From assembly GCF_007741495.1 (NCBI RefSeq), contig NZ_CP036262.1:5642001-5706000 (forward strand): DNA of 64,000 bases. Reading direction: 5' to 3'. Positions 42,692-57,536 of this stretch are shown here, piece after piece; positions within the stretch are counted from its first letter, which is position 1; every line of letters starts with the position of its first letter. Below the pieces are notes generated by a model. The model saw nothing but the letters and a program-made list of their open reading frames with translations, had not been told where the DNA came from and did not search any database. Origin of the DNA: Roseimaritima multifibrata. Lineage in GTDB: Bacteria > Planctomycetota > Planctomycetia > Pirellulales > Pirellulaceae. The position numbers were made by a program, and so were the translations under genes.

Positions 42692-43773
42692 TTCAGTTCC
42701 TCTGGCAGCCTGCCGGATAGGGATTGCAGAAAGATCTCGATCTTCTGCACTTCGCTTTGGCTTAACGTGGCCCCCAATTGATGAATCGCCATTACCTTGA
42801 TCGCGTCCTCTAAAGTCTCACTTCGTCCATCGTGAAAGTAGGGAGCGGTTTGTGCAATGTTTCTTAGCGTTGGAACTTTGAACCGGCACATATCATCGGG
42901 GCGGTTCGTCACATTGAAGCGGCCTCGATCCTCGATTGTTTGCTGGCGATCCGCGGTATCGCCCTCACCGATCACTCCAAATTTCTGAAACAGATTTCCC
43001 CCCACCGTTCGCCCTTGATGACAGGCAATGCAGCCAATCCGCTTGAACAGCAAATAGCCTTCCTTTGCCGATTCACTGATCGCATGCTCCTCACCAAGCA
43101 GGTAAAGATCGAAAGGTGCATCCATGGTTACCAACGCTCTCTCATACGTTGCGATGGCATTGCAGAGTGCATGCTCATTGACGCCCTGGGGGTAAACTTC
43201 TTCGAATCGTGTTCGGAAATCACGATCGCGACTCAAACGTTCAACGATCATGTCCCAGTTGGCGTCCATTTCGAAAGGATTGTGAATCGGTTCCTGCATC
43301 TGTTCTTCAAGCGTCGCAACCCTCCCATCCCAAAACTGTGCGACGGAAAGGCTGCAGTTCAATACCGTGGGGCTATTTAGATTTCCGATGGCCTGCTCGA
43401 TTCCGATCGCAACAGGCAATCCATCATCGCCACCACTGGCGACCTGATGACACGTCGAACAAGCGATCTTTTCGTTTCGCGAAAGACGCGGATCATTGAA
43501 TAGCGCACGCCCAAGTTGAACCTTGGCAGGGTCCAGGCCGACAGGCCGAACCAACGGCCGGATCGGCTCACTCCAATCATCCTTCGCCAAAACCGCAACG
43601 ATTCCCTCCGATTTTTCGCCGACGCTGGAAGATGGATCCAGCGTTGAATCCAGACGAGGAAACACCCCGCTTGCCAACCACGCAAACAGCGGCAAGGAAA
43701 TCCCGATCAGATCCCATCGAATTTTTCGCAAACGGCTCATCCAATCCCCCACTTGAAAGCTGTTCCTCGCCAC
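42688..43773 (-). CDS. Di-haem cytochrome c peroxidase (MauG/CcpA superfamily)
   Basis: 361 aa with an N-terminal hydrophobic segment (IRWDLIGISLPLFAWLASGVFP) that acts as signal anchor or signal peptide. Two haem c sites are present, CSTCH (near 115) and CIACH (near 255), and conserved text such as LGRALFNDPRLS, WDGRVATLEEQMQEPI and FKVPTLRNIAQTAPYFHDG. It would reduce hydrogen peroxide in the periplasm using cytochrome electrons, or belong to the MauG-like oxidising branch. It is the promoter-proximal gene; the PAS histidine kinase starts within its last codons. Confidence 0.9.
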   Translation of the reverse strand: MARNSFQVGDWMSRLRKIRWDLIGISLPLFAWLASGVFPRLDSTLDPSSSVGEKSEGIVAVLAKDDWSEPIRPLVRPVGLDPAKVQLGRALFNDPRLSRNEKIACSTCHQVASGGDDGLPVAIGIEQAIGNLNSPTVLNCSLSVAQFWDGRVATLEEQMQEPIHNPFEMDANWDMIVERLSRDRDFRTRFEEVYPQGVNEHALCNAIATYERALVTMDAPFDLYLLGEEHAISESAKEGYLLFKRIGCIACHQGRTVGGNLFQKFGVIGEGDTADRQQTIEDRGRFNVTNRPDDMCRFKVPTLRNIAQTAPYFHDGRSETLEDAIKVMAIHQLGATLSQSEVQKIEIFLQSLSGRLPEELK

Positions 43774-44183
43774 AAGAAGAATTTCTTATTGTTTCCGGTG
43801 AACCCTAGAACGGTCCTGATCGGACTAAGCCGTCTTCCAACGGCTTTGCGGAGACCCGTAGAAGCAAACGTGGCCCGCGAGCATGAGGGGCAGGGCAAGA
43901 GATCGCCAGAGCGGAAAACACTTCTTGAATCGATAGTGTTTTAGGGGAACTACCGATTAATCAGGCAAAGGCCGACTGGCGACCGGCAGGGCCTCGCTCC
44001 GATTCGGTCGCGATTAAAGGTCACGCCTCCCCTAACGAAAACAGCATTGAGGGGGGGTGGAGCGTTCTTTCACGCGGGACGTGAAATGGATCGGTGACGG
44101 ATTGCCGGTCTGCCCACGCTCTGGCGAGCGTAGCGACGTCACGGCGGCCTCATTCAACACGCGCCAAATAACGGACGCGCCGG
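43774..44183. other. Intergenic region between peroxidase and YhaM-like genes
   Basis: About 410 bases with no supported gene. It holds the inverted copy of the dispersed repeat (44110-44138), a hairpin-prone stretch near 43970-44010, and the promoter region of the minus-strand peroxidase gene, which I could not place. The plus-strand open frames here have no protein-like composition. Confidence 0.35.
44110..44138 (-). repeat. Dispersed GC-rich intergenic repeat, copy B (inverted)
   Basis: On the minus strand it reads CGTCGCTA then CGCTCGCCAGAGCGTGGGCA, matching the core at 4571-4600 almost exactly. It is intergenic and 39.5 kb from the other copy. Confidence 0.6.
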
Positions 44184-45143
44184 CTAAGATTTCCAGAATT
44201 TCCGGCCCATGGCTGAGTTGTAATTGGTCCAGTTGGAATCGCCTGAAACATCCGCTTCGATCACGGAAGTCACAGCCGTTAGCTTGGCGTCCATATTATC
44301 CAGATGGTGCAGGGCGATCGCTTCAAGGCTCATCGGCACCTTGGGACTGCCGTAATCCAATTTTCCATGGTGGCTAAGAATGAGATGTTCCAATTGCCAT
44401 CGAAGATTATCGGGAACCGGTTCGCCCACCGACACTTCCAGCACCTGCAATTTCTCCGCCAGCATTTGGACTCCGATCACAATGTGTCCAATCAACTGGC
44501 CGCGATCGGTGTACGTCGATTCCCCGGCAGACGAAAGTTCTTCGATCTTTCCTAGGTCGTGCAGGAAAGCCCCCATGACCACCAGTTCAAAATCGACTTG
44601 GGGATACTTTGGCGAGATGGCTTGGGCCATTTCCATTAAATCGACGGTATGTTGAAGCAGACCGCCTGGATAAGCATGGTGATTGGACACCGCTGCGGGA
44701 GCGATTTTCAGGCGAGCAAGAAAATCATCATCTGCCAAGAACGTTTCCCCCAAACGTCGCAGATGCACGTTGGTTAGGCCCGCCAGGATTGAACGCAGTT
44801 TGACCTCCAATGCATCGGCTGCCGAAGCATCGAAGCGATCAAAATCAGCGATGTCGACTTGGGAAACATCGACCTTGGCAATATCGGTCAGGATCGCTTG
44901 CAGGTTCCCGTTGTACAACTGAATCCGCCCCTGGCAGCGAACGAAATCCCCACGTTCGAACGAATCGAAGATCCGTTCATCAACATTCCAGTACATCCCC
45001 GTCAACGTCCCTGTCCGGTCAGCCAACTTCATCAAGATGTACTTGCCACCCTGGCGATTGGCTCGCAATTGTTTGTCAGCGGCACGAAACACTTCGTCCA
45101 GAGTTTCCTGCTCCGACAGTTCATTGACAAATCGACGTGCCAT
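44184..45143 (-). CDS. YhaM-like 3'-5' exoribonuclease (OB fold + HD)
   Basis: 319 aa. The N-terminal 100 residues are an OB-fold nucleic-acid-binding domain (ILMKLADRTGTLTGMYWNV, GDFVRCQGRIQLYNG). The HD phosphohydrolase domain carries NHHAYPGGLLQHTVDLME and FLHDLGKIEEL (near 194), then LILSHHG. This is the YhaM/CBF1-type architecture known mainly from Firmicutes, where it trims RNA and single-stranded DNA with metal ions. Length fits. Separated by 117 bases from the RluA-type gene, with a 7-bp hairpin (45172-45191) in the spacer. Confidence 0.92.
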   Translation of the reverse strand: MARRFVNELSEQETLDEVFRAADKQLRANRQGGKYILMKLADRTGTLTGMYWNVDERIFDSFERGDFVRCQGRIQLYNGNLQAILTDIAKVDVSQVDIADFDRFDASAADALEVKLRSILAGLTNVHLRRLGETFLADDDFLARLKIAPAAVSNHHAYPGGLLQHTVDLMEMAQAISPKYPQVDFELVVMGAFLHDLGKIEELSSAGESTYTDRGQLIGHIVIGVQMLAEKLQVLEVSVGEPVPDNLRWQLEHLILSHHGKLDYGSPKVPMSLEAIALHHLDNMDAKLTAVTSVIEADVSGDSNWTNYNSAMGRKFWKS

Positions 45144-45260
45144 GGGGCGACTTCAGGCTAGAGAGATAGAAATGGAAATCAACTTCCATTGCAACCGAAT
45201 CACAGCAAAACCTCAACCCTTCTAGAAGCGGGCGAGATATTTTTTCGGTGACTCGCAGAC

Positions 45261-46259
45261 CTAAGATTCGTTTGCAGCCTGCAATAAATCTAGACAGGTT
45301 TGCATATCGTCATGCAATGGAGCCTCAAAAGTCATCGGCTTGTTGGACTGCGGATGCTGGATCGTCAAACGATAAGCATGCAATGCCTGCCGTTCCAGAA
45401 CGACCGTCTCATCGGTCTCGCGCCGCAATTTCAGCAACTGATTTCGAGTCAACGTGGCATGCCCACCGTACAATTTATCGCACAGGACCGGTGTACCGAT
45501 GTGGTCTAAATGAACACGAATCTGGTGGGTCCGGCCTGTCTTTGGACGGCAGCGCACATAAGTCCCCGTCGCAAACCGATCAATGACTTCGTAAAAGGTC
45601 GACGCCGGCTTACTGGTGACATGATTCTCTCGAATCGCCATTTTGTCACGCTGGAAAGGATGCCGACCGATGGCGGCTTCGATCCGATCGCGATCTCTGT
45701 CGATCCTGCCCGCCGTCAATGCCAAGTACTCTTTCTCGACCGTGCGAGCGGCAAACTGTTCAGCCAAATGGATGTGCACGGCGTTCGTTTTTGCCACCAA
45801 GATGACCCCAGTGGTATCTCGATCCAAACGATGCACAATCCCTGGTCGCGCTGGCCCGCCGATGTCTGACAGCGACTGAAAGTGATAGGCGAGGGCACTG
45901 GTCAGCGTCCCCGACCAATTTCCTCGAGCTGGATGCACAACCATTCCAGCTGGCTTATCGACGACCACCATCCCATCATCCTCATACAGGATATTGATGG
46001 GAATGTTTTCAGGAATCGAACCATCTGGCGCCGGTGGCGGCACCACAAATTCGACTCGTTGCCCCGCACGGACCTTAAAACTCGGCCGGACGACGCGTCC
46101 ATCCACCTGAGCCGCTCCACCATGCACAGCCTTCCGCAACTGCTCACGGCTGTAACCATCGATGGCAGCGGTCAAAAAGATATCGATTCGAGTCCCATGC
46201 ACCGATTCCGGCACAATAAACTCGCGAGGCCCAGCCCCGGATCCGTCGGCACTACTCAC
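45261..46259 (-). CDS. RluA-family ribosomal RNA pseudouridine synthase
   Basis: About 332 aa. An S4-like domain (RIDIFLTAAIDGYSREQLRKAV, then GRVVRPSFKVRAGQRVEF) precedes the catalytic domain with HRLDRDTTG (catalytic Asp near 143), YLALTAGRI and the conserved tail RTHQIRVHLDHIGTPVLCDKLYG. This is the RluD-like arrangement (23S rRNA helix 69 in other bacteria), but the position cannot be assigned by reading. The open frame extends to 46322, overlapping the TPR gene by 71 bases; GTG 46259 within GTGAGTAG overlaps that stop by eight bases and is the more likely coupled start. Confidence 0.92.
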   Translation of the reverse strand: MSSADGSGAGPREFIVPESVHGTRIDIFLTAAIDGYSREQLRKAVHGGAAQVDGRVVRPSFKVRAGQRVEFVVPPPAPDGSIPENIPINILYEDDGMVVVDKPAGMVVHPARGNWSGTLTSALAYHFQSLSDIGGPARPGIVHRLDRDTTGVILVAKTNAVHIHLAEQFAARTVEKEYLALTAGRIDRDRDRIEAAIGRHPFQRDKMAIRENHVTSKPASTFYEVIDRFATGTYVRCRPKTGRTHQIRVHLDHIGTPVLCDKLYGGHATLTRNQLLKLRRETDETVVLERQALHAYRLTIQHPQSNKPMTFEAPLHDDMQTCLDLLQAANES

Positions 46260-47640
46260 CTGTTGCGGGAGCCAATTCCGTTTCGCCAGTCCCCTCCGGT
46301 GCGTCTTCTGCCGGCTTTGCATCGGCCGCTTTCTTCTCAGCGGCGGCCTTCTCAGCTGCCGCTTTTTCTTCGGCAGCCTTCTTTTCGGCAGCGGCCTTGT
46401 CAGCAGCCGCTTTTTCCTCAGCAGCCTTCATCTCAGCTGCTTTCTTTTCTTCAGCAGCTTTCTCAGCAGCCGCTTTTTCCTCGGCAGCCTTCATCTCAGC
46501 CGCTTTCTTTTCTTCAGCAGCTTTCTCAGCAGCCGCTTTTTCCTCGGCAGCCTTCATCTCAGCCGCTTTCTTTTCTTCAGCAGCTTTCTCAGCAGCCGCT
46601 TTTTCCTCGGCAGCCTTCATCTCAGCCGCTTTCTTTTCTTCAGCAGCTTTCTCAGCAGCCGCTTTTTCCTCGGCAGCCTTCATCTCAGCCGCTTTCTTTT
46701 CTTCGGCAGCCTTGTCAGCAGCCGCTTTTTCTTCGACGGCCTTCATCTCAGCCGCTTTCTTTTCTTCGGCAGCCTTCATCTCAGCTGCTTTCTTTTCTTC
46801 AGCAGCTTTCTCAGCAGCCGCTTTTTCTTCGGCAGCCTTCATATCAGCCGCTTCTTTTTCCTGAGCAGCCTTTTCAGCAGCTGCCGCTTCTTCTTTGTTC
46901 ATCTCTTCAACGGCGGGCTTTTCATTTGCTGGCGGTTCAACGGCAAAGTTTTCCGGAATCTCCATGTCAGGAGCATCTGGAAGCGTTGCGGAATCGGGCA
47001 TCCCGGGCGTTTCTGCAGGAGCCGTGGTTTCGGGATCTTGCTCTCCGAACCAGGTCAGAAATTCAACCGTCTCTGGTCGATTCAAACTGGCGATTCGCTG
47101 CTCAGCGGCCTTCACCATCGCAGCCGACTCATCCGCAGCAACCACTTGCTCGTAGGCAGCAAGGGCTCCCTCAACATCGCCCAGTGCTTCCAAACTTCTC
47201 GCCAATCCCAAGGATGCACGCGAACGGAGCAGGGTATCTTCAACCTGACCGAGCACCTGTCGGTAATCTTCGACGGCCTGCTCAAGCTGGGCAACGGACT
47301 GTTTACGCACGGTAAACATTCCTTCAGAGCCTTCGGCCAGTTCAATGTCCGCTTTTGCCAGAAGTGCCAGCGAAGCCGCCTGCGTTCCGGGATAGTTCAA
47401 GGCGACATTGGCAAGCGATTCGGTATTCGCTTGTCCGGAATGAATCAGGTAGGTCAGCGTCGCGTCGCTGCGTTGATTAGCCGAACGACTTTGCAGGTAA
47501 CCGATCGTCAAAGCGGCAACCACCACAGCGATCACGCCTGTCAGGATAGCCGGAGCATAAGGTTCGACCTTTTTCCAGTACCCTCCTAGGGCATCGGCGA
47601 GTTCGTTCTTTTGCAGTTCATGCCGACGTTCGCTATTCAT
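46252..47640 (-). CDS. TPR protein with 21-residue Ala/Glu/Lys repeat tail
   Basis: About 462 aa from ATG 47640. Cytoplasmic start, transmembrane helix (about 24-46, ILTGVIAVVVAALTIGYL), then a TPR-like helical domain (to about 200, LARSLEALGDVEGALAAYEQVV), resembling YfgM-type SecYEG-associated proteins. An acidic Pro-rich linker leads into about 170 residues of Ala/Glu/Lys repeats of the form EEKKAAEMKAAEEKAAAEKA, TolA-like and expected to be a long charged helix or coiled coil reaching into the periplasm. Function unknown; envelope spanning or translocon assistance is inference. The downstream RluA-type gene starts within its last codons. The in-frame Met at 47691 is possible but less likely. 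Confidence 0.82.
   Translation of the reverse strand: MNSERRHELQKNELADALGGYWKKVEPYAPAILTGVIAVVVAALTIGYLQSRSANQRSDATLTYLIHSGQANTESLANVALNYPGTQAASLALLAKADIELAEGSEGMFTVRKQSVAQLEQAVEDYRQVLGQVEDTLLRSRASLGLARSLEALGDVEGALAAYEQVVAADESAAMVKAAEQRIASLNRPETVEFLTWFGEQDPETTAPAETPGMPDSATLPDAPDMEIPENFAVEPPANEKPAVEEMNKEEAAAAEKAAQEKEAADMKAAEEKAAAEKAAEEKKAAEMKAAEEKKAAEMKAVEEKAAADKAAEEKKAAEMKAAEEKAAAEKAAEEKKAAEMKAAEEKAAAEKAAEEKKAAEMKAAEEKAAAEKAAEEKKAAEMKAAEEKAAAEKAAEEKKAAEMKAAEEKAAADKAAAEKKAAEEKAAAEKAAAEKKAADAKPAEDAPEGTGETELAPATGE
46395..46860. repeat. 63-bp tandem repeats inside the TPR protein gene
   Basis: The phrase TCATCTCAGCCGCTTTCTTT recurs at 46491, 46554, 46617 and 46680, a 63-bp period equal to 21 codons; the copies are nearly identical and flanking ones are diverged. 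The bottom strand encodes Ala/Glu/Lys helices. Near-identity at DNA level suggests recent expansion by slippage or unequal recombination, so length may differ between strains. Confidence 0.9.
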
Positions 47641-48037
47641 AATTACTGGTCCATCAGCGGTAAGCGCAGTGAGCCGGCGCAAACCGTTCAACGCTCGAGG
47701 AATTAGGGGATCGGTCGCTCACGCCCCAAAAAAAGACGTGGATCGACCTCCGGGAAGCTGGTCAGTATAGAAATCGGCCTGTTTTAGCGTCAATAGTGCC
47801 TTGTAAAGAGAGTTTTTTCGTTGGGCGATCGCGATCAAGGGCCTCCCTTTCCGTTACAAGGTTTGCGTTTTCAACCTCTCGGCAGCCCCTCCCCCCTCCC
47901 GTTGGCGGCTCCAAAAACTGCACAGACGGACAACATTCGAGCGATGCGAGACTTGTGTTGTAGGGGGGGGCGACTATGCTCAATCCAACCATCCGACTAG
48001 GTAAGATAGCCCCCCTGGACACTAAAAAGACTGCCTG
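47641..48037. other. Divergent intergenic region before the SDR-MMPL-acyltransferase operon
   Basis: About 400 bases, no gene. It should carry promoters for both flanking operons. Runs of eight or nine G or C and short pyrimidine tracts (CCCCTCCCCCCTCCC near 47887-47901) are present. Confidence 0.4.
47953..47980 (+). promoter_or_regulatory. Candidate sigma-70-type promoter for the three-gene operon
   Basis: TTGTGT (47953-47958), 16-base spacer, TATGCT (47975-47980), 57 bases before the SDR start. Both hexamers differ from consensus and the spacer carries a G8 run. Weak, listed because it is the best match in the spacer. Confidence 0.3.
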
Positions 48038-49183
48038 ATGACCCCAGACTACCTATTCCTAACAGGTGCGACAGGCCATATCGGAAATTACCTCCTCAAA
48101 GACCTGCTTCTTCGCCAACAGCCCGTGGCTGTCTTGGTCCGAGACAAACGGGGACGAGCGGGCGCCGAGCGTGTGGCAAAACTGATCGACGACTGGAATC
48201 TGAGACTCGGCTTGGATTTGCCAGCACCGGTTTGCTTGACGGGTGACACATCCCAAGAAGACTTCGGACTCTCACAAACCGACCGGCAGTGGGTAAAGGA
48301 TCACTGCCGGACGCTAGTCCACAACGCCGCCAGCGTCGCTTTCAAAAGTCGTAATGAAGGCGAAATCATGAGCAACAATCTGACCAGTGCCAAACGGGCG
48401 TTGGAGGTATGCAGAGACACAAACCTAGAGCACCTGGTGTTTGTCTCGACCGCCTACGTCAGTGGCGACCGCGACCAGACCATTTACGAAGACGAACTCA
48501 TTTGCGGCCAGTCCTTCCGAAACGAATACGAACATTCCAAGTACGAAGCCGAACGGACCATCCGAGAATCATCGATTCCTGACCAAACCACGGTGATTCG
48601 CCCCGGGATCGTGGTTGGCCACTCCGCGTCTGGACACACAAACGTCTATCATACGTTCTACCGATTTGCTCAGTTCACATGGGCGCTTGCCCGAACTGCC
48701 AAAAAAGACAACGACGGACGATGGCAATTGAATGTTCGCCTAGCGATGAGCGGAAACGAACGGAGGCACGTGATTCCCGTGGACTGGGTTACCCAAGCCA
48801 TGGTCGCGATCCTGGAAAACCAAGAGTGCTGGGGCAAAACATTCCATCTGACCCCGTCCAATCCAACGACTTCGCGAAACATTCAGTTGGCACTGCAGCA
48901 GTACTTCGCATTTGACGGAGTCCAATTCTCCGGGCAAGACCTGCTTGATTCAAACAATTTGGTTGGGGAAGAAATCCTTTTCTATGAATTCCTAAAAGAC
49001 TACCGCGAGTACTTTTCCGAAGAACCGGTCTACGATCGCGCCAACACCGACGCGGTTGGTTTTTCATTCGATGAACCCGAGGTCGATCAAGACTGCATGG
49101 TCCGCCTGATCGACTACGCCGTTCGCTCTCAATTTGGACGACGCCGACGCGGGACCGTCGGAGCCGGAAGCAATGGCGGCTAA
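48038..49183 (+). CDS. Thioester-reductase-like SDR (NAD-binding_4)
   Basis: 381 aa. An extended SDR: nucleotide loop GATGHIGNYLLKDLL, VRDKRG, the NAAS motif (HNAASVAF), FVSTAYVSG, and the catalytic YxxxK in YEHSKYEAER, then VIRPGIVVG and a substrate part with HVIPVDWVTQAM. The pattern is that of Male-sterility/thioester-reductase domains (NAD-binding_4), which reduce acyl-ACP or acyl-CoA thioesters to aldehydes or alcohols. It stands alone here, not fused to an adenylation or carrier domain. Overlap of the downstream exporter gene and the adjacent acyltransferase suggest a fatty aldehyde/alcohol step in a lipid pathway. Other SDR roles, such as sugar epimerisation, cannot be ruled out. Confidence 0.85.
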   Translation: MTPDYLFLTGATGHIGNYLLKDLLLRQQPVAVLVRDKRGRAGAERVAKLIDDWNLRLGLDLPAPVCLTGDTSQEDFGLSQTDRQWVKDHCRTLVHNAASVAFKSRNEGEIMSNNLTSAKRALEVCRDTNLEHLVFVSTAYVSGDRDQTIYEDELICGQSFRNEYEHSKYEAERTIRESSIPDQTTVIRPGIVVGHSASGHTNVYHTFYRFAQFTWALARTAKKDNDGRWQLNVRLAMSGNERRHVIPVDWVTQAMVAILENQECWGKTFHLTPSNPTTSRNIQLALQQYFAFDGVQFSGQDLLDSNNLVGEEILFYEFLKDYREYFSEEPVYDRANTDAVGFSFDEPEVDQDCMVRLIDYAVRSQFGRRRRGTVGAGSNGG

Positions 49184-51440
49184 GTCGTCTCATCTGCAGT
49201 CGCTGGTATCAAAGATTGGAATCACAATCCTTGCAGCTCTCCTCCCGCTATTTGTAATAGCACTCGGGCGAATCGAGAGCAGTACGGCATCGATTGAAAA
49301 CTGGTTACCATCCGGCGGCGAGGAACAAGTACGGTACGCCAAATTCCTAAAACAATTCCACACGGATGTTTTCGTCGCGGTCTCCTGGGAAGATTGCCGA
49401 CTGAATGACGGACGGCTAACAGACTTCGCAGACCAACTGCAGGCCAAGGTCGATTCGGATCCCCAACTGGCAATCCGTCGAATCATCACGTCGGCGGAAG
49501 TGGTCACGCAGATGACCGAGGGCCCCGCCAAGCTCTCGCGGCGGTCGACGCTGCTCCGCTTGCGAGGAGTGTTTGTCGGCCCCGATGAACAAGCCCTTGC
49601 GATCATCTATCTAAAAGACTGCACAACCGACGAACAACAGCACGTTGTCCAGACGGTCATCGATACCGCGATGCAAGCCACTGGACTCGAACGTGATGAA
49701 CTGCGGATCGGGGGAAATGCCTACGAAGCCGTTTATATCGACGAAACAAGTGCCAGGTCGATCAAGTACTTTGTGATCCCGTCATCGCTTGCCGCCATCC
49801 TGGTCGCTTACCTATGCATCCGGAACCTGCAACTGACGCTGATCGTGCTGGCGATCGCAAGCTACTGCCAAGTCAGTGGCGTTGCGTTTATCTATTTCTG
49901 CGGCGGGCAGTTAAATGCGATCCTGTCCGTGCTGCCGACCATGCTGTTCATGTTGACCGTTTCTGCTGCGATCCATCTGATCAACTACTACCAGAAAGCG
50001 GGCGGCGCCCAAAACCCGAGGGCAAGTATCGAAGCGATCAAAGTCGCCTGGGTACCCTGTATTCTGGCTTCAACCACAACGGCCATCGGTTTCTTTTCGT
50101 TGATGATCAGCGACCTAAAACCCGTTAGCGACTTTGGTTTTTTCGCATCACTTGGGCTGCTGTGGTCCACCGCCGTCCTGTTCATTTCCTTCCCTGCCTT
50201 GGTTTCGCTGCTGGACAAATCCCCTGCGATAGCTGACACCGATTCGAATCCCCAGCCCACCGCGGCCAATACGACCGGCGAGCGTTTCACTCAATTTGGA
50301 CGTTTTCTTTCCGAGCAGATCATTCGCCACGCGAAACCGATCTGCTGGGCGGGTGCCCTTGTTTTCATCGTCTCACTTCTGGGAATGTCGCATCTCCGAT
50401 CCTCGGTCAAACTGGAAAGCATGTTTGAAGAGAAAAGTGAGATCATTCAGAACTATGAGTGGATCGAAAAGCACATCGGCCCGCTGATTTCGGTGGAGGT
50501 TCTTCTTCATTTCCCTGACGACGATGACACCGATCCAATCCAACGCGCCGAACGTGTCTGGAAAATCCATCAAGCGATTTTAAGTGTCGAAGAAGTGGGC
50601 GGCGTCTACTCCGCACTCTCCTTTCTTCCCTCCATTCCCCCCGCAGGTGGACTGAGGAACACGATGCGACGGACCGCGATGCGAGAAACGCTTGAATCAA
50701 CGATACCAGTCCTTGTTCAAGAAGGAGTGATCGCCCGAGACGCAAGTGGCGAGCACTGGCGAGTGACCGCCAAGGTCCCCGCCGTCCATGCACTCGATTA
50801 CGGCGACCTAACCGACAAGGTTTCCGAAGTCGTTTTTGCGATGGCCGAACGAACCTTTCCAAAGGAGAAAAAGCAGATCACGATCACCGGGCTGTCACCG
50901 GTTCTGCATGAAGCTCAGAAGTTATTGCTAAGCGACCTTACCAAAAGTTTTCTGTTAGCGCTTACCATCATCACTCCGATCATGATTTTTGCGTTGGGTA
51001 ATATCCGCGAAGGATTGATATCGATGGTCCCCAACGTCGCCCCCGCGGTTATCGTCTTTGGAGCACTGGGATGGCTGGGGATCGATCTGGACATTGCCTG
51101 CGTGCTAACCGCTAGTGTGGCAATGGGGATCGCCGTCGACGACACGCTCCACTTCATCACCTGGTTTGCGCGCGGCCAGCAGCGTGGGCTGAACCTAACG
51201 GAAGCGATTGAATTCACGTTTGCGCGATGCACCAAGGCGATGCTACAAACAACATTGATCTGCGCATCGGCGATGCTTGTATTTGCTCCCGTCGAATTCA
51301 TTCCGACTCGCAAATTTGCGTTACTGATGGTCGCCATGCTGGTCGCGGCGATTGTCGGCGACCTGCTCCTCCTGCCTGCCTTGCTTGTGAGCGGAACCAA
51401 ACGTTGGCGAAAGCTGCCTCCCACGGAGGGCAATTCCTAA
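49173..51440 (+). CDS. MMPL/RND family lipid-type transporter
   Basis: About 755 aa from ATG 49173 (GGAG ten bases upstream; overlaps the SDR stop by 11 bases). Two repeated halves, each a helix, a large periplasmic domain, then five helices: SSLAAILVAYLCIRNLQLTL, LSVLPTMLFMLTVSAAIHLINYYQ in the first; ITPIMIFALGNIREGLISM and VAMGIAVDDTLHFITWFARG in the second. The layout matches COG1033/MMPL RND exporters, which move hydrophobic molecules such as hopanoids or glycolipids from the inner membrane. No membrane-fusion or outer-membrane partner is adjacent. Being between a thioester-reductase-like gene and an acyltransferase gene with overlaps on both sides points to a dedicated lipid product. 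Confidence 0.88.
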   Translation: MAAKSSHLQSLVSKIGITILAALLPLFVIALGRIESSTASIENWLPSGGEEQVRYAKFLKQFHTDVFVAVSWEDCRLNDGRLTDFADQLQAKVDSDPQLAIRRIITSAEVVTQMTEGPAKLSRRSTLLRLRGVFVGPDEQALAIIYLKDCTTDEQQHVVQTVIDTAMQATGLERDELRIGGNAYEAVYIDETSARSIKYFVIPSSLAAILVAYLCIRNLQLTLIVLAIASYCQVSGVAFIYFCGGQLNAILSVLPTMLFMLTVSAAIHLINYYQKAGGAQNPRASIEAIKVAWVPCILASTTTAIGFFSLMISDLKPVSDFGFFASLGLLWSTAVLFISFPALVSLLDKSPAIADTDSNPQPTAANTTGERFTQFGRFLSEQIIRHAKPICWAGALVFIVSLLGMSHLRSSVKLESMFEEKSEIIQNYEWIEKHIGPLISVEVLLHFPDDDDTDPIQRAERVWKIHQAILSVEEVGGVYSALSFLPSIPPAGGLRNTMRRTAMRETLESTIPVLVQEGVIARDASGEHWRVTAKVPAVHALDYGDLTDKVSEVVFAMAERTFPKEKKQITITGLSPVLHEAQKLLLSDLTKSFLLALTIITPIMIFALGNIREGLISMVPNVAPAVIVFGALGWLGIDLDIACVLTASVAMGIAVDDTLHFITWFARGQQRGLNLTEAIEFTFARCTKAMLQTTLICASAMLVFAPVEFIPTRKFALLMVAMLVAAIVGDLLLLPALLVSGTKRWRKLPPTEGNS

Positions 51441-52717
51441 TGAGCCCCCAACGCCGACTGCGAATCGCCGCATGGGAGCGTTACATGGCCGTTGACCATG
51501 GCTCGCTCCACAGCATGACCTGCTTTTCGCGTTTTTGGTTTTCCGGATCGTTTGACCAAGATCGATTTAGCCAAGCGGTTTTGGCGGTTGCCACCCGCCA
51601 ACCACTCCTCGCTACGAAACTAACCGGCTCCCACTGGACTCCCATCCCGTTTGATCCCACACAACAAATCGACTGGCATGATTCGACGGTGCCGATCGCC
51701 TTCGATCATTTGGCTTCCGATGATTTTCGCGTCCGGATTTCGGTTCGCGAGGGACCGCTGCAAGAATTAGGATTCCCCTCCCAGTCCCCCAATCAGGCAA
51801 CGGGCGTCTTGGTCGTCATCACCTTCCATCATGCCCTCAGCGACGGGATCGGTGCGGTCAGGCTGATGGCACAAATATCGGCCGCCTATGAAGCGCGAAC
51901 CGCGTCAGAAACGGACCGAGAGGATTTCGATTACCGACTTCACCTGGGGTTAACCACGTCGCAGCGTCTGGGCAGACTGCCCTCGGACAGCAAACGGATC
52001 GCTGCCTATTTGCATCGCTGGCCCCGCCAAGCCAAGGGAACCGCTGGCGAACGCGACGAACGCGAAATCCACAGTCGATCGTTGATCCTATCGGCGGAAT
52101 CGGTACACGACATTCGCTTGCGATGTCGCCAGAAAGGAATTCAGGTCAACGACGTCTTGATTTCAGCGCTGCTCCGATCGATTGCCAATCGACTACAACG
52201 CGGCACCATTCGGCTTGCCGTTCCCGTTTCTTTCCGACCAAAATCCCACCTCGGATTCTGCAACTTGGTCAGTATGGTTTTCCTTGACCGCTCGGTATCA
52301 CAAACGAAAAAACCAAATCTGCTTTCCAGCGTTGCACGCGAGATGCACGAAATCAAATCGAAGCAGATGGCACACTCGATGAGCCTGTTCTTAAAACTCG
52401 CATGCCTTGGACGCGGCAAATTCCTCAGCCTGTTTCTCCGCTCTCCCAAAACGGAAACGACCGCCGTCCTAACCAACCTCGGGCATAGTGCGTCGGACCA
52501 TGACGGAGTGTCGTTTGATTCCGCGAAACTTCAGGGTCACGATGTCCTCGTTCCCCTTCGGCCCAAGACCAACCTGGCGATGTCGGCAAGCGAAACAAAT
52601 GGACAGATCCTGTTAACGCTACGCTTTAATGGGAAACTCTTTTCGGACAACGATATCGAAGCATTGTTCGCCGAATTCCCCAATCAAATCGCAGACGTCC
52701 TAGTGAGCGACCGCTAA
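51440..52717 (+). CDS. Condensation-domain-type acyltransferase
   Basis: About 425 aa. ATG 51440 overlaps the preceding stop (TAATG). The N-terminus lies in the WERYMAVDHG context and the catalytic HHxxxDG motif is FHHALSDGIG (near 130-136), followed by a long C-terminal half with PVSFRP and NLVSMVFLD. The two-domain chloramphenicol-acetyltransferase-like fold fits free-standing condensation enzymes: PapA5-type acyltransferases, wax-ester synthases or NRPS condensation domains. It should join an acyl thioester to an alcohol or amine. With the SDR and the exporter it makes a self-contained cluster. Whether the nucleophile is a fatty alcohol (giving a wax-like ester) or another compound is unknown. 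Confidence 0.82.
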   Translation: MSPQRRLRIAAWERYMAVDHGSLHSMTCFSRFWFSGSFDQDRFSQAVLAVATRQPLLATKLTGSHWTPIPFDPTQQIDWHDSTVPIAFDHLASDDFRVRISVREGPLQELGFPSQSPNQATGVLVVITFHHALSDGIGAVRLMAQISAAYEARTASETDREDFDYRLHLGLTTSQRLGRLPSDSKRIAAYLHRWPRQAKGTAGERDEREIHSRSLILSAESVHDIRLRCRQKGIQVNDVLISALLRSIANRLQRGTIRLAVPVSFRPKSHLGFCNLVSMVFLDRSVSQTKKPNLLSSVAREMHEIKSKQMAHSMSLFLKLACLGRGKFLSLFLRSPKTETTAVLTNLGHSASDHDGVSFDSAKLQGHDVLVPLRPKTNLAMSASETNGQILLTLRFNGKLFSDNDIEALFAEFPNQIADVLVSDR

Positions 52718-52758
52718 AATCCAGCTGCAACCAAGCAGGGCAGGAGGGGGGAAAGATC

Positions 52759-52841
52759 CCGAAGCCTCCGAAACTAGCACTTAGCAGATGCATTCTTTTG
52801 CGGATTGCGGCGAACCGATCGGCAAATGTACGAGGCTTCGG
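52759..52841. other. Long-range inverted repeat between converging genes
   Basis: CCGAAGCCTC (52759-52768) is exactly inverted at GAGGCTTCGG (52832-52841), and CTGCC/GGCAG forms a second small stem (about 52848-52861). It lies in the 187-base spacer between the acyltransferase gene and the converging nuclease-like gene. No T-run follows, so a terminator role is uncertain. Confidence 0.4.
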
Positions 52842-52904
52842 AGTTACTGCCGGACGGCAGGTGCCGCACTGCGAAGCGGTCACTCGAACAGGATCTTTGC
52901 AAGC

Positions 52905-53603
52905 CTATGCTGCTGCGTGATCTTCGTCGGCTGGCATGCAGGTGTACAGAAACGTATTGCCCGTTTTACCGACTTCCTTAATCGCAGCGGTTTCACGCAG
53001 TACATAGGCGATCCGCTGAGCGATCCAGCGTTTCACATCGAGGGCCTTGGCAAGATCCTCGGTGTTGAACGGGTCGGGCACCTGTTGAAAATCGATTCCC
53101 AGCAGGTCAAGCAACTGAAAACTATCGACGATCTGATGAGTGGATTCGATGCCCGTCAGCACGACATCCTTGACTCGGAATGTTGCCTTGCGTCGTCGAC
53201 GGCGGTTTGCTTTTGGTGGCAATCGCCATTCTTCGACTTCGACCAGCGGGACTTCCAAAATCAACTGCGGGTGCGGGAATACCTTTGTGAAATAGATCAG
53301 TTCATCAAAGATTTCCAAAACCGTTCCGCGCGACGGACTAAACCGCCGACTAAGAACCTTTCCGTCAGCGGTTTTTTGTTTGACGATTCGCTTGCGATAA
53401 ATGATCGGTTTAACCACTCGCACCGAGTGAGTCTGCAGCAACTGGCCGATCTTGTCTCGAATCGAAACAAGCGAACCATGCTGAATTTCGATCAGCTCGC
53501 CATCACGGATCGCATCGATACGATAGGGGCCCAACGTGACTTCCACATCGGCAGCGTGCAGCGCATAAGACTGTTTCAGCTGACGATGAAGAGACGTTTC
53601 CAT
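52905..53603 (-). CDS. Conserved protein with a PD-(D/E)XK-nuclease-like core
   Basis: 232 aa, no signal peptide. The first 60 residues (HRQLKQSYALHAADVEVTLGPYRIDAI, then GELIEIQHGSLVSIRDKI) place an Asp and a Glu-x-Gln as in PD-(D/E)XK nucleases, a fold match I infer by eye. A basic middle part (RRRRRKATFR) and a C-terminal helix-rich part resembling a winged helix (DLAKALDVKRWIAQRIAYVLRETAAI) could bind DNA. No catalytic lysine is evident, so activity is uncertain. It lies nine bases after pyrE in the same operon. Function unknown. Confidence 0.78.
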   Translation of the reverse strand: METSLHRQLKQSYALHAADVEVTLGPYRIDAIRDGELIEIQHGSLVSIRDKIGQLLQTHSVRVVKPIIYRKRIVKQKTADGKVLSRRFSPSRGTVLEIFDELIYFTKVFPHPQLILEVPLVEVEEWRLPPKANRRRRRKATFRVKDVVLTGIESTHQIVDSFQLLDLLGIDFQQVPDPFNTEDLAKALDVKRWIAQRIAYVLRETAAIKEVGKTGNTFLYTCMPADEDHAAA

Positions 53604-53611
53604 GAGGGGAC

Positions 53612-54172
53612 TTATTCCGGTTCGATACCAAAATCACGAACCGTAAAGAGCGTTTGCAGTTCGAGGCCTCGCGCGGCAAAAGCTTCTGCACCGCCTGCTA
53701 GACGATCGATAATTGCGATCACGCCAACAACTTCCAGGCCGAATTCACGAGCGGCATCAACAGCCTTTAACGCACTGCCGCCGCTGGTGATTACGTCTTC
53801 GACAATCACAACTTTCTGCCCCGGTTGCACGGGCCCTTCCACCTGCCGGCCGGTGCCATGTCCCTTGGCCTCTTTACGGACCATGAAACCACGCAGTGGG
53901 AGGTCACGTTGCCCCGCCAAGGTGATAATGGACGCGGTGATAGGGTCGGCACCAATGGCCATCCCACCAACAGCCTGAGGGAGTGGCCCGTTCGCCTCCA
54001 TTTGAGCCAGCATCCCGGCGGCGACCAAATTGGCCCCTTTCGGGTGCAGCGTCAAATTACGGCAATCGAGATAATAAGAAGCGGTTTTTCCACTGGCGAG
54101 CGTGAACTCACCGAATTTCAAAGCCTCACTGGCAAGCAAATCTTTCAGTGCGGCGGCGTCGTAGGCGCTCAT
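53612..54172 (-). CDS. pyrE: Orotate phosphoribosyltransferase
   Basis: 186 aa, normal. It couples orotate and PRPP to orotidine monophosphate in pyrimidine synthesis. The PRPP-binding motif VVIVEDVITSGGSALKAV is intact, with the flexible-loop segment RKEAKGHGTG and the N-terminal FTLASGKTASYYLDCR. It sits between the L,D-transpeptidase gene (34 bases upstream) and the nuclease-like gene (nine bases downstream) on the same strand. Confidence 0.97.
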   Translation of the reverse strand: MSAYDAAALKDLLASEALKFGEFTLASGKTASYYLDCRNLTLHPKGANLVAAGMLAQMEANGPLPQAVGGMAIGADPITASIITLAGQRDLPLRGFMVRKEAKGHGTGRQVEGPVQPGQKVVIVEDVITSGGSALKAVDAAREFGLEVVGVIAIIDRLAGGAEAFAARGLELQTLFTVRDFGIEPE

Positions 54173-54206
54173 GAGGTCCGGTCAAAACGAAGGAGGGGAC
54201 GGACGA

Positions 54207-55529
54207 TCAACGACGAATGCTGATCGTGGAACCTTGCGAAAGGATACCATAGACATCTTCTGCGTCAGCCGCCCGCAATGCGATACAACCATTCTTTGCC
54301 GCTTCGCCAGTCGCTGGGGATCCATGGATCACCATTTGACGTCCCAGATCTAACCAGACGTCGCCGAACGGGTTACGAGGGTCGCCAGCTGGGACAGCGG
54401 CCCCGGTTGGGTCGATATAAGCCTTTGAAGTTTGCTTGTCCTGAATCGTGTACGTTCCCGGCTGGGGGGCAGGGGACTGTCCGGCGGCAATCGGGAACCG
54501 CCCCGCGTACAGGTCTCCGAGCATCAAAGTCATTTCCGATTGAGCCAGATTGACTTCGGCTCGGAAAGGGCCACGGACCACTTTCAGTTCGGTCCCAGGC
54601 AAGACCACCACTGGATCTTCGATGTTGTTGATATTGGCGAGCAATTGCCACGGCACACGGAATTCCGCTGCGATTTCCATCAAAGTCTCGTTCTGCCCCA
54701 CCCGGTAAGGCTGCTCCAGCAGATGCAAACGAGAATAAATCACTTCGCCTGCCAGGGGATCAAGCCGGCTGAGCAACTGCTTGCGTTCACTCTCGGTAAG
54801 ATCTGGAGCCGCATAGAAAACACTAAGCGTCGCGAGTGCATCTTTCATGCGGTCGGCCGCGACCTGTTGATCCGCGGCTAGGATCGCGTTGATCAAGCCA
54901 ATGTTTCCAATCCCAGACGCAGCCCCCGCAGGGGGAGCCGAATCCGCAACGGATCCAGCATCCGGCATTGCGAATCCGTCCGGAGAAGAATTCGCAGCAT
55001 CTTTGCTGGCCGAGGCGGAAGTATCGCTAGGCGGCAAATTGGGCTCTTCGGTAAATTGGTTCGTCAGCGACTGAGGATCAGGAAGCTGATAGGGCTCCTC
55101 ACCCGTCGAATCGTAGTTTGCATCGATCGCGATTTTGGGAGGCGTTGAGCTGGCGGGAGGTTTCGGCAAACGAGTCGCGGAAGGGCCGTTACTGCTCTCC
55201 GCACTGGCACCACCGTAGTTTTCATTCGGTGCCGACGGGATTGCTGCAAAGGACGGTCCAGCCTGTGCGTCTTCGGGCGACGCAGAGGAACTAGGGGCCG
55301 GAGCCCCAGGATTCATACTAAGAGCGCCCATCATGTCCGATGGTGCCCCTTCGCTAATTCCCAGTGACGCCAGAGCGTCTGCTCCATCGGCGGAGAATTC
55401 CGGATCGGTCTCCATGATTCGGACGATTTCCTCAGGCACTTGAGCCGGAGGCGTCGTTAATGAGACGTAAGCCCCATAAACCACCGTAAGCATTAGGACA
55501 ACAATCACTGCCGTCTTGAAAGTTTGCAC
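54207..55529 (-). CDS. L,D-transpeptidase with LysM domain
   Basis: 440 aa from GTG 55529, which has a near-perfect AAGGAGG six bases upstream. N-terminal membrane anchor or signal (FKTAVIVVLMLTVVYGAYV), a long low-complexity Ser/Pro/Ala linker (about 60-210), a LysM motif (YRVGQNETLMEIAAEFRVPWQ), and a YkuD domain ending HGSPATGEAAKNGCIAL. The catalytic Cys is kept, but the usual SxGC-x-R arginine is Ala here and Ser is Asn. It would cross-link or anchor envelope peptides. Planctomycetes have a thin peptidoglycan, so a structural role is plausible. It shares an operon with pyrE. Confidence 0.88.
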   Translation of the reverse strand: MQTFKTAVIVVLMLTVVYGAYVSLTTPPAQVPEEIVRIMETDPEFSADGADALASLGISEGAPSDMMGALSMNPGAPAPSSSASPEDAQAGPSFAAIPSAPNENYGGASAESSNGPSATRLPKPPASSTPPKIAIDANYDSTGEEPYQLPDPQSLTNQFTEEPNLPPSDTSASASKDAANSSPDGFAMPDAGSVADSAPPAGAASGIGNIGLINAILAADQQVAADRMKDALATLSVFYAAPDLTESERKQLLSRLDPLAGEVIYSRLHLLEQPYRVGQNETLMEIAAEFRVPWQLLANINNIEDPVVVLPGTELKVVRGPFRAEVNLAQSEMTLMLGDLYAGRFPIAAGQSPAPQPGTYTIQDKQTSKAYIDPTGAAVPAGDPRNPFGDVWLDLGRQMVIHGSPATGEAAKNGCIALRAADAEDVYGILSQGSTISIRR

Positions 55530-55733
55530 CGCGATCCTCCTTGACCCGTAGCGACCGATTCAACGGTAACTATTCCACGTGCGATTCCTCGGTCATCGAG
55601 AAACCCAACTAAAAACATGTACTTCCATGCCGCGCGAGGAAAGTACCGAAAACTCCACTCCCATGACTATAGCAATTCAAAAGGAAACGATCCCCCCCAC
55701 GATGACGAGGCTTCGCCGTGAGAAAAAAGAGAG
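55530..55733. other. Spacer between COG0523 gene and L,D-transpeptidase
   Basis: About 200 bases with no gene. It contains the strong Shine-Dalgarno sequence of the transpeptidase gene (55536-55542) and a C7 run near 55690. Promoter not placed. Confidence 0.3.
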
Positions 55734-56831
55734 CTACTCGGTCCGGAAAGTCGGCTCGGGACGCCCGGGGCGAAAACTCTCGATCGAATCGATGGTCACG
55801 GTCGCCTGAAGCCCTACCGCTAGGCTTTTTAGGGTTTCTTCGACCGCTGCTTGCAACGCGTCAGGTGCCAAACGGACTCGAGCATTCACGATCAGCGACA
55901 ACTCCTTCCCCCCCGTTTCCGATGAAACCGAAAGGGACGTCGGGGTATCGCTACTGACCAGGTTGGCGACGCTGACGCCACTTTGCGAAGTGCAGAGGAT
56001 TTTCAGATGAGCGGGTTCCGCATCCAATTCCAGCAATCGGTCTCGCAGGCTATCGACCACATGAACCGCGACCTGATCACATTTCTTTTCAACCGCCGCG
56101 ACCAAAGTCGCCGTGGCGTTCAGCCACCCCAGTTCAGCTTCGCCGTCGGCATAGACATCGTAGTCGACTTCCATCCTGGAGGCTCGCGGGCTGGCCGTAC
56201 CGGCCAAAGCGGCCTGCAGTTGATCCAGGTTTTCGCCAGTTTTTGCCGATAGACAGATCACCGGTCGATCCGGGTATTGCTCGGCCAATTTCGCCTGCAG
56301 CAATTCAACCTTCTCCCGAGGCAGTTCATCGATGCGATTGATCAGAATCAGCTCGGCTTCTTCCAGCTGTTTCCGAAAAATGTATTCAGCTTTCTCTGAA
56401 AACCCACCTTTGCGATCCCCGGTCAGGATCTTCAACCCATGACTTGGCTTCAAAACAACCGCGAAGGGGCTATGCACAAACTTCTCCCCCAGTCGCTCCA
56501 TCATCGGCAACGCGATGGTTGCGATCAGGTCGGTGCAACTGCCAACCGGTTCCGCCAAAATGACATCGGGGCGTTGCTGCTTATCAAAAGCCTCAATCGC
56601 GTCGGTCAAACCATGGAAGTTGCAACAAAAGCAGGAGCCCGCCACTTCATTGACTTCTAAGCCCTGGCTCCGCAGCAATTCGGTATCGACCAAGCCGGCT
56701 GCCTGGTCGTTGGTGACCACACAAACGTGTTTGCCTTCGGCCAGAAACCGCTTGGCCAACTGACTGATCAGCGTCGTTTTCCCAGCTCCCAAAAAACCAC
56801 CGACCATGATAAAGCGGATTGGAGAAGCCAT
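55734..56831 (-). CDS. COG0523 (CobW/P47K) GTP-binding metallochaperone-like protein
   Basis: 365 aa. Walker A GGFLGAGKTT (11-20), the family's metal site CFCC (67-70), Walker B-like ILAEPVGSC and a guanine-specificity motif INRIDELP. The C-terminal part lacks the classic CobW_C histidine run and instead has a compact alpha/beta tail. COG0523 proteins move zinc, cobalt or nickel to client enzymes and often respond to metal shortage. A small ArsR-type repressor gene lies 100 bases upstream on the same strand, so metal-responsive control of this pair is plausible. Confidence 0.9.
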   Translation of the reverse strand: MASPIRFIMVGGFLGAGKTTLISQLAKRFLAEGKHVCVVTNDQAAGLVDTELLRSQGLEVNEVAGSCFCCNFHGLTDAIEAFDKQQRPDVILAEPVGSCTDLIATIALPMMERLGEKFVHSPFAVVLKPSHGLKILTGDRKGGFSEKAEYIFRKQLEEAELILINRIDELPREKVELLQAKLAEQYPDRPVICLSAKTGENLDQLQAALAGTASPRASRMEVDYDVYADGEAELGWLNATATLVAAVEKKCDQVAVHVVDSLRDRLLELDAEPAHLKILCTSQSGVSVANLVSSDTPTSLSVSSETGGKELSLIVNARVRLAPDALQAAVEETLKSLAVGLQATVTIDSIESFRPGRPEPTFRTE

Positions 56832-56931
56832 CGTCAGTGCGCCTTGTGAAAAACAGTATTCGAGAAACCTAGCAAGCTCACTAGTATATCAAACATTCTC
56901 AAGAACGTCAGATCGTTCGTCAAGTCACGAA

Positions 56932-57249
56932 CTATCCAACCGGCTCACTTTCGCCGACATCCAACTGGCAGCAGCCAAAATCAAGAAGTCCCCGTTTCCC
57001 ACGACGTTTACTCGGGCGAATCTCTTCATTCAGCGAGTAGTAGATAAACTTTCCTTCCCGCCGAGTCTGCACAACATCGGCATGATAAAGGACTCGCAAG
57101 TGGTGCGAGACAACGCCGATTTCTTGTTCCAGCAGCAAAGTCAGATCGGAGACACTAAGAGGCCCATACTGCAGAGCTCGCACAATTCGCATCCGCAGTG
57201 GATCGGCAACCGCCTTCAACGAAGCGGCACATTTTTCTTCGTTTTCCAT
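56932..57249 (-). CDS. ArsR/SmtB-family metal-responsive regulator
   Basis: About 105 aa from ATG 57249 (an in-frame ATG at 57273 is less likely). A winged helix: VADPLRMRIVRALQYG, the recognition region VSHHLRVLYHADVV, and the wing TRREGKFIYYSL. The N-terminal Cys (EEKCAASL) and a C-terminal CC pair (DFGCCQLD) are candidate metal ligands, as in cadmium/arsenic/zinc sensors. It precedes the COG0523 gene on the same strand, 100 bases apart. Likely to repress itself and its neighbour until metal binds. Confidence 0.88.
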   Translation of the reverse strand: MENEEKCAASLKAVADPLRMRIVRALQYGPLSVSDLTLLLEQEIGVVSHHLRVLYHADVVQTRREGKFIYYSLNEEIRPSKRRGKRGLLDFGCCQLDVGESEPVG

Positions 57250-57358
57250 ATCGAATGAAATCACAACGAACAAGGTTTGACAGAGAAGCAGAAGACCTAA
57301 GTATGCAGCGATCCCCCAAGAACTTCAACTTGTCTGCCACCAAACAAGCAAGAAGCAA

Positions 57359-57457
57359 GCCAGAAGAAAGATTTGCCCGCGAATCACGCCAATAACGCGA
57401 ATAAAAAATCTCTTCGTGAGCAGCATTCGCGCTATTAGCGTGATTAGCGGGCAATAA
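57359..57457. repeat. Palindromic intergenic repeat, copy 1
   Basis: A roughly 100-bp unit beginning GCCAGAAGAAAGATTTGCCC. Inverted arms TTGCCCGCGAATCACGCC (from 57373) and GCGTGATTAGCGGGCAAT (to 57455) can form a long hairpin. The second copy is 178 bases on. Family known in appearance from many bacterial genomes, function unknown. Confidence 0.85.
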
Positions 57458-57536
57458 AACAAGCATCGGAGACGCAGCAAATGACCGAACTTGTCGACGA
57501 AGTCCGACACATTGAAAACACCGGAGCATGCCTGGA

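Follow-up and report, generated by a model that had tools for sequence, protein, structure and literature searches.

What would a planctomycete make with a thioester reductase, a membrane pump and an acyltransferase encoded as one compact unit? The question is raised by a locus of Roseimaritima multifibrata, whose genome is a single contig of 7,216,590 bases. The locus lies in the window analyzed here, a stretch of 64,000 nucleotides (C1:5642001-5706000) in whose numbering positions are given unless stated otherwise, and comprises genes for a short-chain dehydrogenase/reductase (SDR), a resistance-nodulation-division (RND) transporter of the MMPL family and a free-standing acyltransferase. An earlier note, made from the sequence alone, had proposed that this trio reduces an acyl thioester to an alcohol, esterifies it with a second acyl group and exports the product. 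We consider it somewhat better than an even bet that the trio is indeed one operon making and exporting an esterified lipid by the chemistry predicted below, and the reading that fits best is that of a branch, without a glycosyltransferase, within a planctomycete family of clusters built from reductases, acyltransferases, exporters, and glycosyltransferases. The reading is built on the family assignments, the folds, the gene order, the recurrent neighborhood, and the congruence of the reductase and acyltransferase trees observed here.

In the proposed pathway, with the steps in this presumed order, the SDR would use NAD(P)H to convert an acyl thioester (acyl-CoA or acyl-ACP) into the aldehyde, which it would probably reduce further to a long-chain alcohol. 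Next, the acyltransferase, presumably cytosolic, would attach another acyl chain to a hydroxyl group, either that of the alcohol itself, giving a wax-like ester, or that of a sugar carried by the alcohol; the sugar, if any, would be added to the alcohol by a glycosyltransferase encoded elsewhere. Finally, the RND pump would carry the product outward from the inner membrane. The substrate of the SDR probably comes from ordinary fatty-acid metabolism, because no polyketide synthase (PKS) gene is present here and few are found beside the SDRs of the same clade. The most abundant fatty acid reported for the strain is C18:1 omega-9c (55.1%), followed by C16:0 (PMC8303584), and these two would be natural acyl donors.

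The putative thioester reductase

The first gene of the trio (48038..49183, + strand) encodes the SDR, a protein of 381 amino acids. Pfam profiles, a sequence search, and the modeled fold all place it among proteins of the thioester-reductase kind (R-domain or NAD_binding_4), the thioester reduction itself being a prediction. Its top Pfam family, by about 80 bits, is NAD_binding_4 (PF07993; 4.4e-42, 144.5 bits against a cut-off of 20.1), compared with 63.2 bits for Epimerase. The thioester reductase domain family TIGR01746 scores below its cut-off (119.1 against 213.35 bits) and is still the best of the 23 NCBIfam families listed. A phmmer search of the PDB returned five sequences at E<=1e-3, all of them chains of PKSs, non-ribosomal peptide synthetases (NRPSs) or thioester-reductase domains, with MxaA (4u7w, 2.2e-22) as the best match. 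Similarly, when an AlphaFold2 model built from 30 sequences (pLDDT 89.8) was ranked against known structures, R domains took places 1 to 8, followed by the plant protein DPW (9) and the R domain of CAR (10), and epimerases appeared from place 11 onwards. The nearest structure is the myxalamid R domain of MxaA (4w4t/4u7w), and next come the PKS thioreductase of S. coelicolor and an archaeal T-R didomain. The three tests agree with the acyl-thioester-reductase assignment of the earlier note and rule out a sugar epimerase, a grouping that the note itself had named as speaking against its proposal.

The SDR carries a TGATG cofactor motif, R35, S137-T138, and Y164xxxK168. None of R35, S137, T138, Y164, and K168 varies in the two alignments made, of 25 and of 30 sequences with that of the window counted, and T138, Y164, and K168 are the residues that we take to be catalytic. 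The protein is shorter than many of its relatives, as it is devoid of their C-terminal extension of about 120 amino acids, which carries a GGGQW motif. Five pieces of such extensions (e.g., L189:11060-11422 and L149:11060-11449) were scanned with Pfam, and one of them gave weak matches to Alkyl_sulf_C (0.0093) and SCP2 (0.13), both below cut-off, so that the extension is possibly an SCP2-like lipid-carrier domain.

The acyltransferase and the transporter

The third gene (51440..52717, + strand) encodes the ACYLTRANSFERASE, a free-standing HHxxxDG acyltransferase of 425 amino acids. It matches the Condensation family (PF00668; 5.5e-9, 35.7 bits, above the cut-off of 30.6), and its motif reads HHALSDG (H130, H131, and D135 in alignment numbering); 50 of the 54 sequences aligned, counting that of the window, have HHxxxDG. 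Sequence searches with this protein found no PDB chain, PapA5 included, at E<=1. The structural model, built from eight sequences, reaches a pLDDT of 68.3 (pTM 0.74), which is why the fold assignment is of medium confidence. In Foldseek, NRPS heterocyclization and condensation domains rank first (5t3e, 2.3e-16, TMq 0.65) and PapA5 is also matched (1q9j, 1.3e-14, TMq 0.59). A condensation/PapA5 fold is therefore assigned at that confidence, with acyl transfer as the predicted activity, and the motif and the fold bear out the free-standing acyltransferase of the earlier note. The structural comparison with PapA5 and with wax ester synthase/diacylglycerol acyltransferases (WS/DGAT), which that note had suggested, gave a match to the former, and no WS/DGAT is found among the best 50 of the 325 matches at E<=1e-3. 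A plain WS/DGAT identity was rejected on the scores, which lie under the curated cut-offs for both PF03007 (22.2 bits; 23.6 needed) and TIGR02946, acyl_WS_DGAT (1.4e-11, 44 bits; 309.95 needed).

These results bear directly on the nature of the product. One sub-version of the best explanation, which we hold only tentatively, is that the enzyme acts as a wax ester synthase on a fatty alcohol and yields a sugar-free, neutral, wax-ester-like lipid that is exported or stored. It would account for the weak similarity to the two WS/DGAT families, and it agrees with the absence of a glycosyltransferase gene both at the window and at the locus of its nearest relatives (L041, see below). The low scores and the high rank of NRPS C domains and PapA5 speak against it. 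Moreover, neutral wax is usually stored, and storage would leave the pump unexplained.

That pump is encoded by the middle gene (49173..51440, + strand; 755 amino acids), an HAE3-like RND transporter of the MMPL Pfam family. The match to MMPL (PF03176; 3.8e-21, 75.8 bits, cut-off 20.5) falls in two stretches and confirms the RND assignment previously made for this gene. The top NCBIfam match is HAE3 (TIGR00921), with 135.9 bits, below the cut-off of 351.9. A DD pair is present in the C-terminal half (GIAVDDTLHF); the corresponding stretch in the N-terminal half is free of acidic residues, which also holds for 33 of 44 aligned sequences, a count that includes the window and some duplicate contigs.

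Distribution and genetic neighborhood

The three gene families are widespread. Among 146 genomes of the order, a set that contains the genome studied here, matches were found to the acyltransferase (P0003) in 67 (E<=1e-3), to the SDR (P0001) in 58 (E<=1e-30), and to the MMPL protein (P0002) in 134 (E<=1e-15), with best foreign identities of 32%, 42%, and 38%, respectively. At the level of the family (199 genomes), the foreign acyltransferase matches listed (E<=1e-12) are at most 32% identical, and at E<=1e-30 none of the remaining three genomes in the genus, of which one is only 82% complete, has the SDR. One pattern-limited scan of species genomes yielded at least 251 stretches encoding an SDR relative; among the best 80 of these 251, 77 are planctomycete by title and the others are labeled Acidobacteriota, Candidatus Nealsonbacteria, and 'bacterium'. 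Close orthologs of the trio were not found in these searches.

The neighborhoods of the SDRs were compared in the window and 160 loci (L039-L118 and L139-L218, leaving out L001-L038 and L119-L138). An SDR is encoded in 144 loci, window included, and removal of 12 with identical last 300 SDR residues left 132. The 131 SDR loci other than the window include a second cluster of the same genome, and eight of the 73 order-level SDR matches fall outside the set. Within 9 kb of these 131 SDRs there is a glycosyltransferase gene in 36, an MMPL gene in 31, an acyltransferase gene in 29, and a giant PKS gene (representative domains KS, AT, ACP, KR, and DH) in 31; at 22 of the 131 loci, the MMPL gene lies on the same strand and at most 500 bp from the SDR gene. 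The FastTree phylogeny splits the SDRs into two clades, one of 61 rows that holds all 31 giant-PKS loci and one of 71 rows that holds the window and no such PKS. Among the 70 relatives in the clade of the window, a glycosyltransferase is found within 9 kb in 31, an MMPL protein in 18, an acyltransferase in 11, and a giant PKS in none. Only 20 of the 70 have the full 9 kb on both sides, and among them the counts are 10 for glycosyltransferases, five for MMPL, one for acyltransferases, and eight for none of the three.

The commonest partner in this clade is thus the glycosyltransferase, of a GT21/GT2-like type, and for this reason the product may contain a sugar. Matches to this glycosyltransferase at E<=1e-25 exist in 55 of the 146 genomes of the order, and rough arithmetic suggests that one would turn up within 9 kb of a randomly chosen gene in well below one case in a hundred, with the reservation that this family was picked because it lies near SDRs. 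The partners also recombine in other sets: pairs of MMPL and glycosyltransferase genes (L234, L236, and L242) and of acyltransferase and glycosyltransferase genes (L251 and L252) are encoded in fetched stretches that hold no SDR gene.

The nearest relatives of both the window SDR and the window acyltransferase are encoded at one locus, L041 (G046:C27). The pairing of the SDRs has a support of 98 in FastTree and 95 in an IQ-TREE mixture model, and that of the acyltransferases one of 95. The seven-row SDR group around the two has a support of 95 in FastTree, 53 in IQ-TREE, and 68 when L041 is left out. Distances in the SDR and acyltransferase trees are correlated, with r 0.85 over 30 loci, window included, and 0.59 over 20 dereplicated loci (permutation p=1e-4). 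The order SDR, MMPL, acyltransferase on one strand is also found at L043, on the same contig of a lake metagenome-assembled genome (MAG) as L173, and at L189; at L139, the order is SDR, acyltransferase, glycosyltransferase. In the MMPL tree, the pumps of L043 and L189 sit on another branch than the window pump, which seems from this placement to have been recruited separately. The simplest account of the trees would be that an SDR-acyltransferase pair of the L041 kind acquired its own pump and so arrived at the order of L043 and L189 a second time.

In the sister clade of SDRs, nine genomes of the family (L061, L062, L065, L067-L071, and L073) hold a giant PKS together with an SDR, an acyltransferase, an AMP-ligase, a class-III aminotransferase, and a Rieske oxygenase, and seven of these clusters also with a KR-type SDR. 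This cluster appears to encode a lipid or polyketide pathway of its own, with SDRs drawn from the sister clade.

Evidence weighed against a dedicated lipid pathway

Several observations weigh against reading the trio as a dedicated unit for an exported ester. The exact gene order recurs at only two of the 131 other SDR loci, and in both a glycosyltransferase gene comes next. L041 holds the SDR, the acyltransferase, and a second acyltransferase on the other strand, with no MMPL or glycosyltransferase detected. In the clade of the window, 30 of the 70 relatives have no glycosyltransferase, MMPL or acyltransferase gene within 9 kb, including the eight with complete flanks. The window branches are long in both the SDR and the acyltransferase trees, the program having warned of long branches meeting, and the congruence of these trees may partly reflect shared species history. 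The identities to the nearest relatives (42% for the SDR, 32% for the acyltransferase) are too low to transfer a substrate, and the SDR could carry out a two-electron reduction to the aldehyde. The conserved neighborhood anticipated for the trio is hence seen in part: a limited partner set recurs near the SDRs, and the exact arrangement is rare.

Polyketide synthases enter the picture at one point within the small SDR group of the window. At L140 (2262-11140), from an Acidobacteriota MAG, a complete 2569-amino-acid reducing PKS with the domains KS-AT-DH-MT-ER-KR-ACP ends 20 bp before the SDR gene; a ketosynthase (KS) profile run over the 70 clade relatives found only this protein and a stand-alone KS of 439 amino acids in L146. 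Since both L140 and L146 belong to the small group of the window, they count against a clean PKS-free reading, and a PKS-made substrate could occur even there. The L140 locus further holds a methyltransferase and a glycosyltransferase. A split pathway of PKS or NRPS type, in which a polyketide or peptide assembled elsewhere in the genome would be released by the SDR in aldehyde or alcohol form and then acylated by the C-type acyltransferase, can thus point to L140, as well as to the R-domain likeness of the SDR, the C-domain fold of the acyltransferase, the giant PKS genes adjoining 31 of the 61 SDRs of the sister clade, and a KS match of the same genome in an open frame of 2277 codons (6415312-6416637 of the contig). 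The KS matches of the genome lie outside the window, the nearest at 5718149, past its end. We nevertheless regard such a pathway as unlikely: the giant PKS of the sister clade is missing near all 70 relatives of the window's own clade, no carrier or adenylation gene adjoins the trio, and the window acyltransferase belongs to the half of its tree (27 rows) that has no PKS-labeled locus.

The remaining doubts concern the pump. In the MMPL tree, it groups with two proteins that have no SDR, acyltransferase or glycosyltransferase nearby, one of them flanked by two scanned neighbors that are nucleoside and potassium transporters, and it is not close to the MMPL proteins adjoining other SDRs. It could be an unrelated efflux pump. 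A paralog in the same genome (4856922 of the contig; 35%) likewise has no SDR, acyltransferase or glycosyltransferase gene beside it. These groupings, together with the pump-free SDR-acyltransferase pair of L041, would suit a general HAE3/RND pump that was inserted incidentally between the two enzyme genes. Such an insertion is judged improbable, given that L043 and L189 repeat the order with pumps from a different branch and that closely linked, co-oriented MMPL genes accompany the SDR at 22 of 131 loci.

Taken against these points, the reduce-esterify-export pathway of the earlier note keeps its R-domain SDR, its acyltransferase with a C/PapA5 fold, the recurrent partners, and the SDR-acyltransferase congruence. 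Against it stand the rarity of the exact arrangement and a pump not close to those of other SDR loci, and the glycosyltransferase, which follows in both of the other operons of this order, had not been foreseen.

A second cluster and the question of a sugar

The same genome encodes a second SDR cluster (G000:C1:4416047-4432616, from L039 11994 to L040 9653), downstream of whose SDR are found, on both strands, MacB and ABC transporters, an acyltransferase, three glycosyltransferases, HlyD, and OEP. It shares with the trio a paralogous SDR (35%) and an acyltransferase of the same family, and differs from it in having ABC/MacB, HlyD, and OEP export genes and the three glycosyltransferases in place of the MMPL gene. 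By analogy, it looks like a glycolipid assembly and export cluster on the heterocyst glycolipid plan without a PKS. At E<=1e-3, the genome has only two matches to the glycosyltransferase of L189, both in this cluster, and a glycosyltransferase is therefore available in trans.

This leads to another sub-version of the best explanation, tentative to the same degree as the wax ester: an acylated alkyl glycoside, for which the glycosyltransferases of the second cluster (about 4.416-4.433 Mb) would glycosylate the alcohol, the acyltransferase would acylate the sugar, and the MMPL protein would export the product. A possible likeness is to mycobacterial acyl-glycolipid export or to heterocyst glycolipids. 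The prevalence of glycosyltransferases in the SDR clade, their continuation of both other operons of the same order, and the existence of MMPL-glycosyltransferase and acyltransferase-glycosyltransferase pairs are in line with it, as are the two matches in the second cluster, which sit alongside an SDR, an acyltransferase, and a MacB/ABC/HlyD/OEP exporter set. That same set is a reason for caution, since a cluster with its own SDR, acyltransferase, and exporter means that its glycosyltransferases need not serve the trio. Overall, the association with glycosyltransferases across the SDR family favors a glycolipid, whereas their absence beside the trio and beside L041 favors a sugar-free product.

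Locus and genomic surroundings

The three genes follow one another on the + strand as an operon-like unit that is presumably co-transcribed. The SDR and MMPL genes overlap by 11 bases (49173..49183, + strand), which suggests translational coupling, and the MMPL stop and the acyltransferase start overlap in a TAATG with one base in common (51438..51442, + strand). The coordinates and both junctions reported previously, as well as the common strand, were all seen in the open reading frames. The mechanical frame of the MMPL gene opens at TTG 49134 and that of the acyltransferase gene at 51227; ATG 49173 and ATG 51440, the A of the latter shared with the MMPL stop TAA, were preferred as likelier starts because of the gene overlaps.

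Ten flanking proteins (40523-47640 and 52908-59219) are all encoded on the - strand, opposite to the trio, which is accordingly delimited as a self-contained unit of 4.7 kb. Their Pfam families are histidine kinase, cytochrome c peroxidase, HD/OB, pseudouridine synthase, TPR, phosphoribosyltransferase, YkuD/LysM, CobW, and BrkB, one protein having no Pfam match. The scan of these ten proteins found no adenylation, carrier, ketosynthase or other megasynthase domain, which upholds the earlier statement that this is not a normal NRPS/PKS cluster and rules out a classical one at the locus. The gene next to the trio at 46252-47691 (- strand) encodes a TPR-type protein, which carries towards its C-terminus a long series of KAAEEKKAAEMKAAEEKAAAE repeats that are nearly identical.

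The search for promoters and terminators around the trio yielded nothing useful, with no sigma-70-like promoter on the + strand of 47650-53000 and two matches on the - strand, where shuffles give 2.4. The GC content of the trio is 54.5% (window, 54.8%) and its GC3 61.5-63.2% (six neighbors, 56.7-63.7%), so recent foreign DNA receives no signal from composition. The genes of the right flank (a 232-amino-acid protein, pyrE, and a YkuD protein) are kept together in two genomes of the same genus that are devoid of the trio. Three left-flank genes were looked for and are not in the stretches holding that right flank, and the border of the trio is thus a synteny break.

Related systems

Three known systems invite comparison. 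The pairing of a fatty acyl reductase (FAR) with a WS/DGAT is the wax-ester pathway, which joins an NAD_binding_4 reductase to an HHxxxDG acyltransferase. The trio does likewise, and differs in an acyltransferase that falls below the WS/DGAT cut-offs and in an operon that includes a pump. In mycobacteria, PapA/Chp acyltransferases partner with MmpL exporters. The loci for PDIM, acyltrehaloses, and sulfolipid resemble the trio in combining a condensation-fold acyltransferase with an MMPL-family exporter, and PapA5 is among the structure matches of the trio acyltransferase; the acyltrehaloses are covered in PMC4183827. Unlike these loci, the trio has a stand-alone thioester reductase and no PKS or FAAL beside it. 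Furthermore, its pump reaches 85.4 of the 874.7 bits required for the MmpL (actII) subfamily (TIGR00833), and its acyltransferase has no mycobacterial or other PDB match by sequence at E<=1.

The heterocyst (heterocyte) glycolipid island of cyanobacteria (hgl; components from PMC11804610) shares a thioester reductase with the trio, while its glycosyltransferase and its exporter have counterparts at loci related to the trio; the amphiphile is built on a reduced acyl chain. The trio differs in lacking an HglE-type PKS and an adjacent glycosyltransferase, in having an RND rather than an ABC exporter, and in its extra condensation-type acyltransferase. Of the features that define hgl, no KS was found in the ten flanking proteins, and no glycosyltransferase or ABC exporter beside the trio; a published antiSMASH table (PMC13190842) gives 0 hglE-KS clusters for R. 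multifibrata FF011L. The trio therefore appears analogous to the heterocyst-glycolipid and mycobacterial PapA/MmpL loci rather than a member of either. The part of PMC12628686 consulted holds nothing on the trio genes. No described planctomycete system of this make-up was found in the open-licence PMC literature, preprints excluded, and neither was a named system with exactly this arrangement, as the earlier note had surmised. The trio combines known gene families in a manner not found described, and is a variant of a known logic of lipid assembly and export, not a new kind.

Biological meaning

Planctomycete envelopes contain unusual lipids. To our knowledge, the genes that make and export the special outer lipids of these bacteria are largely unassigned. 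As a speculative generalization, more doubtful than the operon itself, there may be a largely polyketide-independent envelope-lipid system, mainly in planctomycetes, in which stand-alone thioester reductases produce long-chain alcohols, enzymes of the condensation fold acylate either these alcohols or glycosides formed from them, and an RND pump dedicated to the task carries the product outward. The window would then represent a glycosyltransferase-free branch, with an SDR, MMPL, acyltransferase order assembled independently of the two other instances and an exported wax-like ester as its product. An operon of reductase, acyltransferase, and pump in a cultivated and sequenced strain offers a three-gene handle on such a lipid. 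Beyond this locus, the glycosyltransferases, acyltransferases, and pumps that recur beside members of the wider SDR family suggest a larger group of exported lipids based on alcohols, which would parallel the heterocyst glycolipids.

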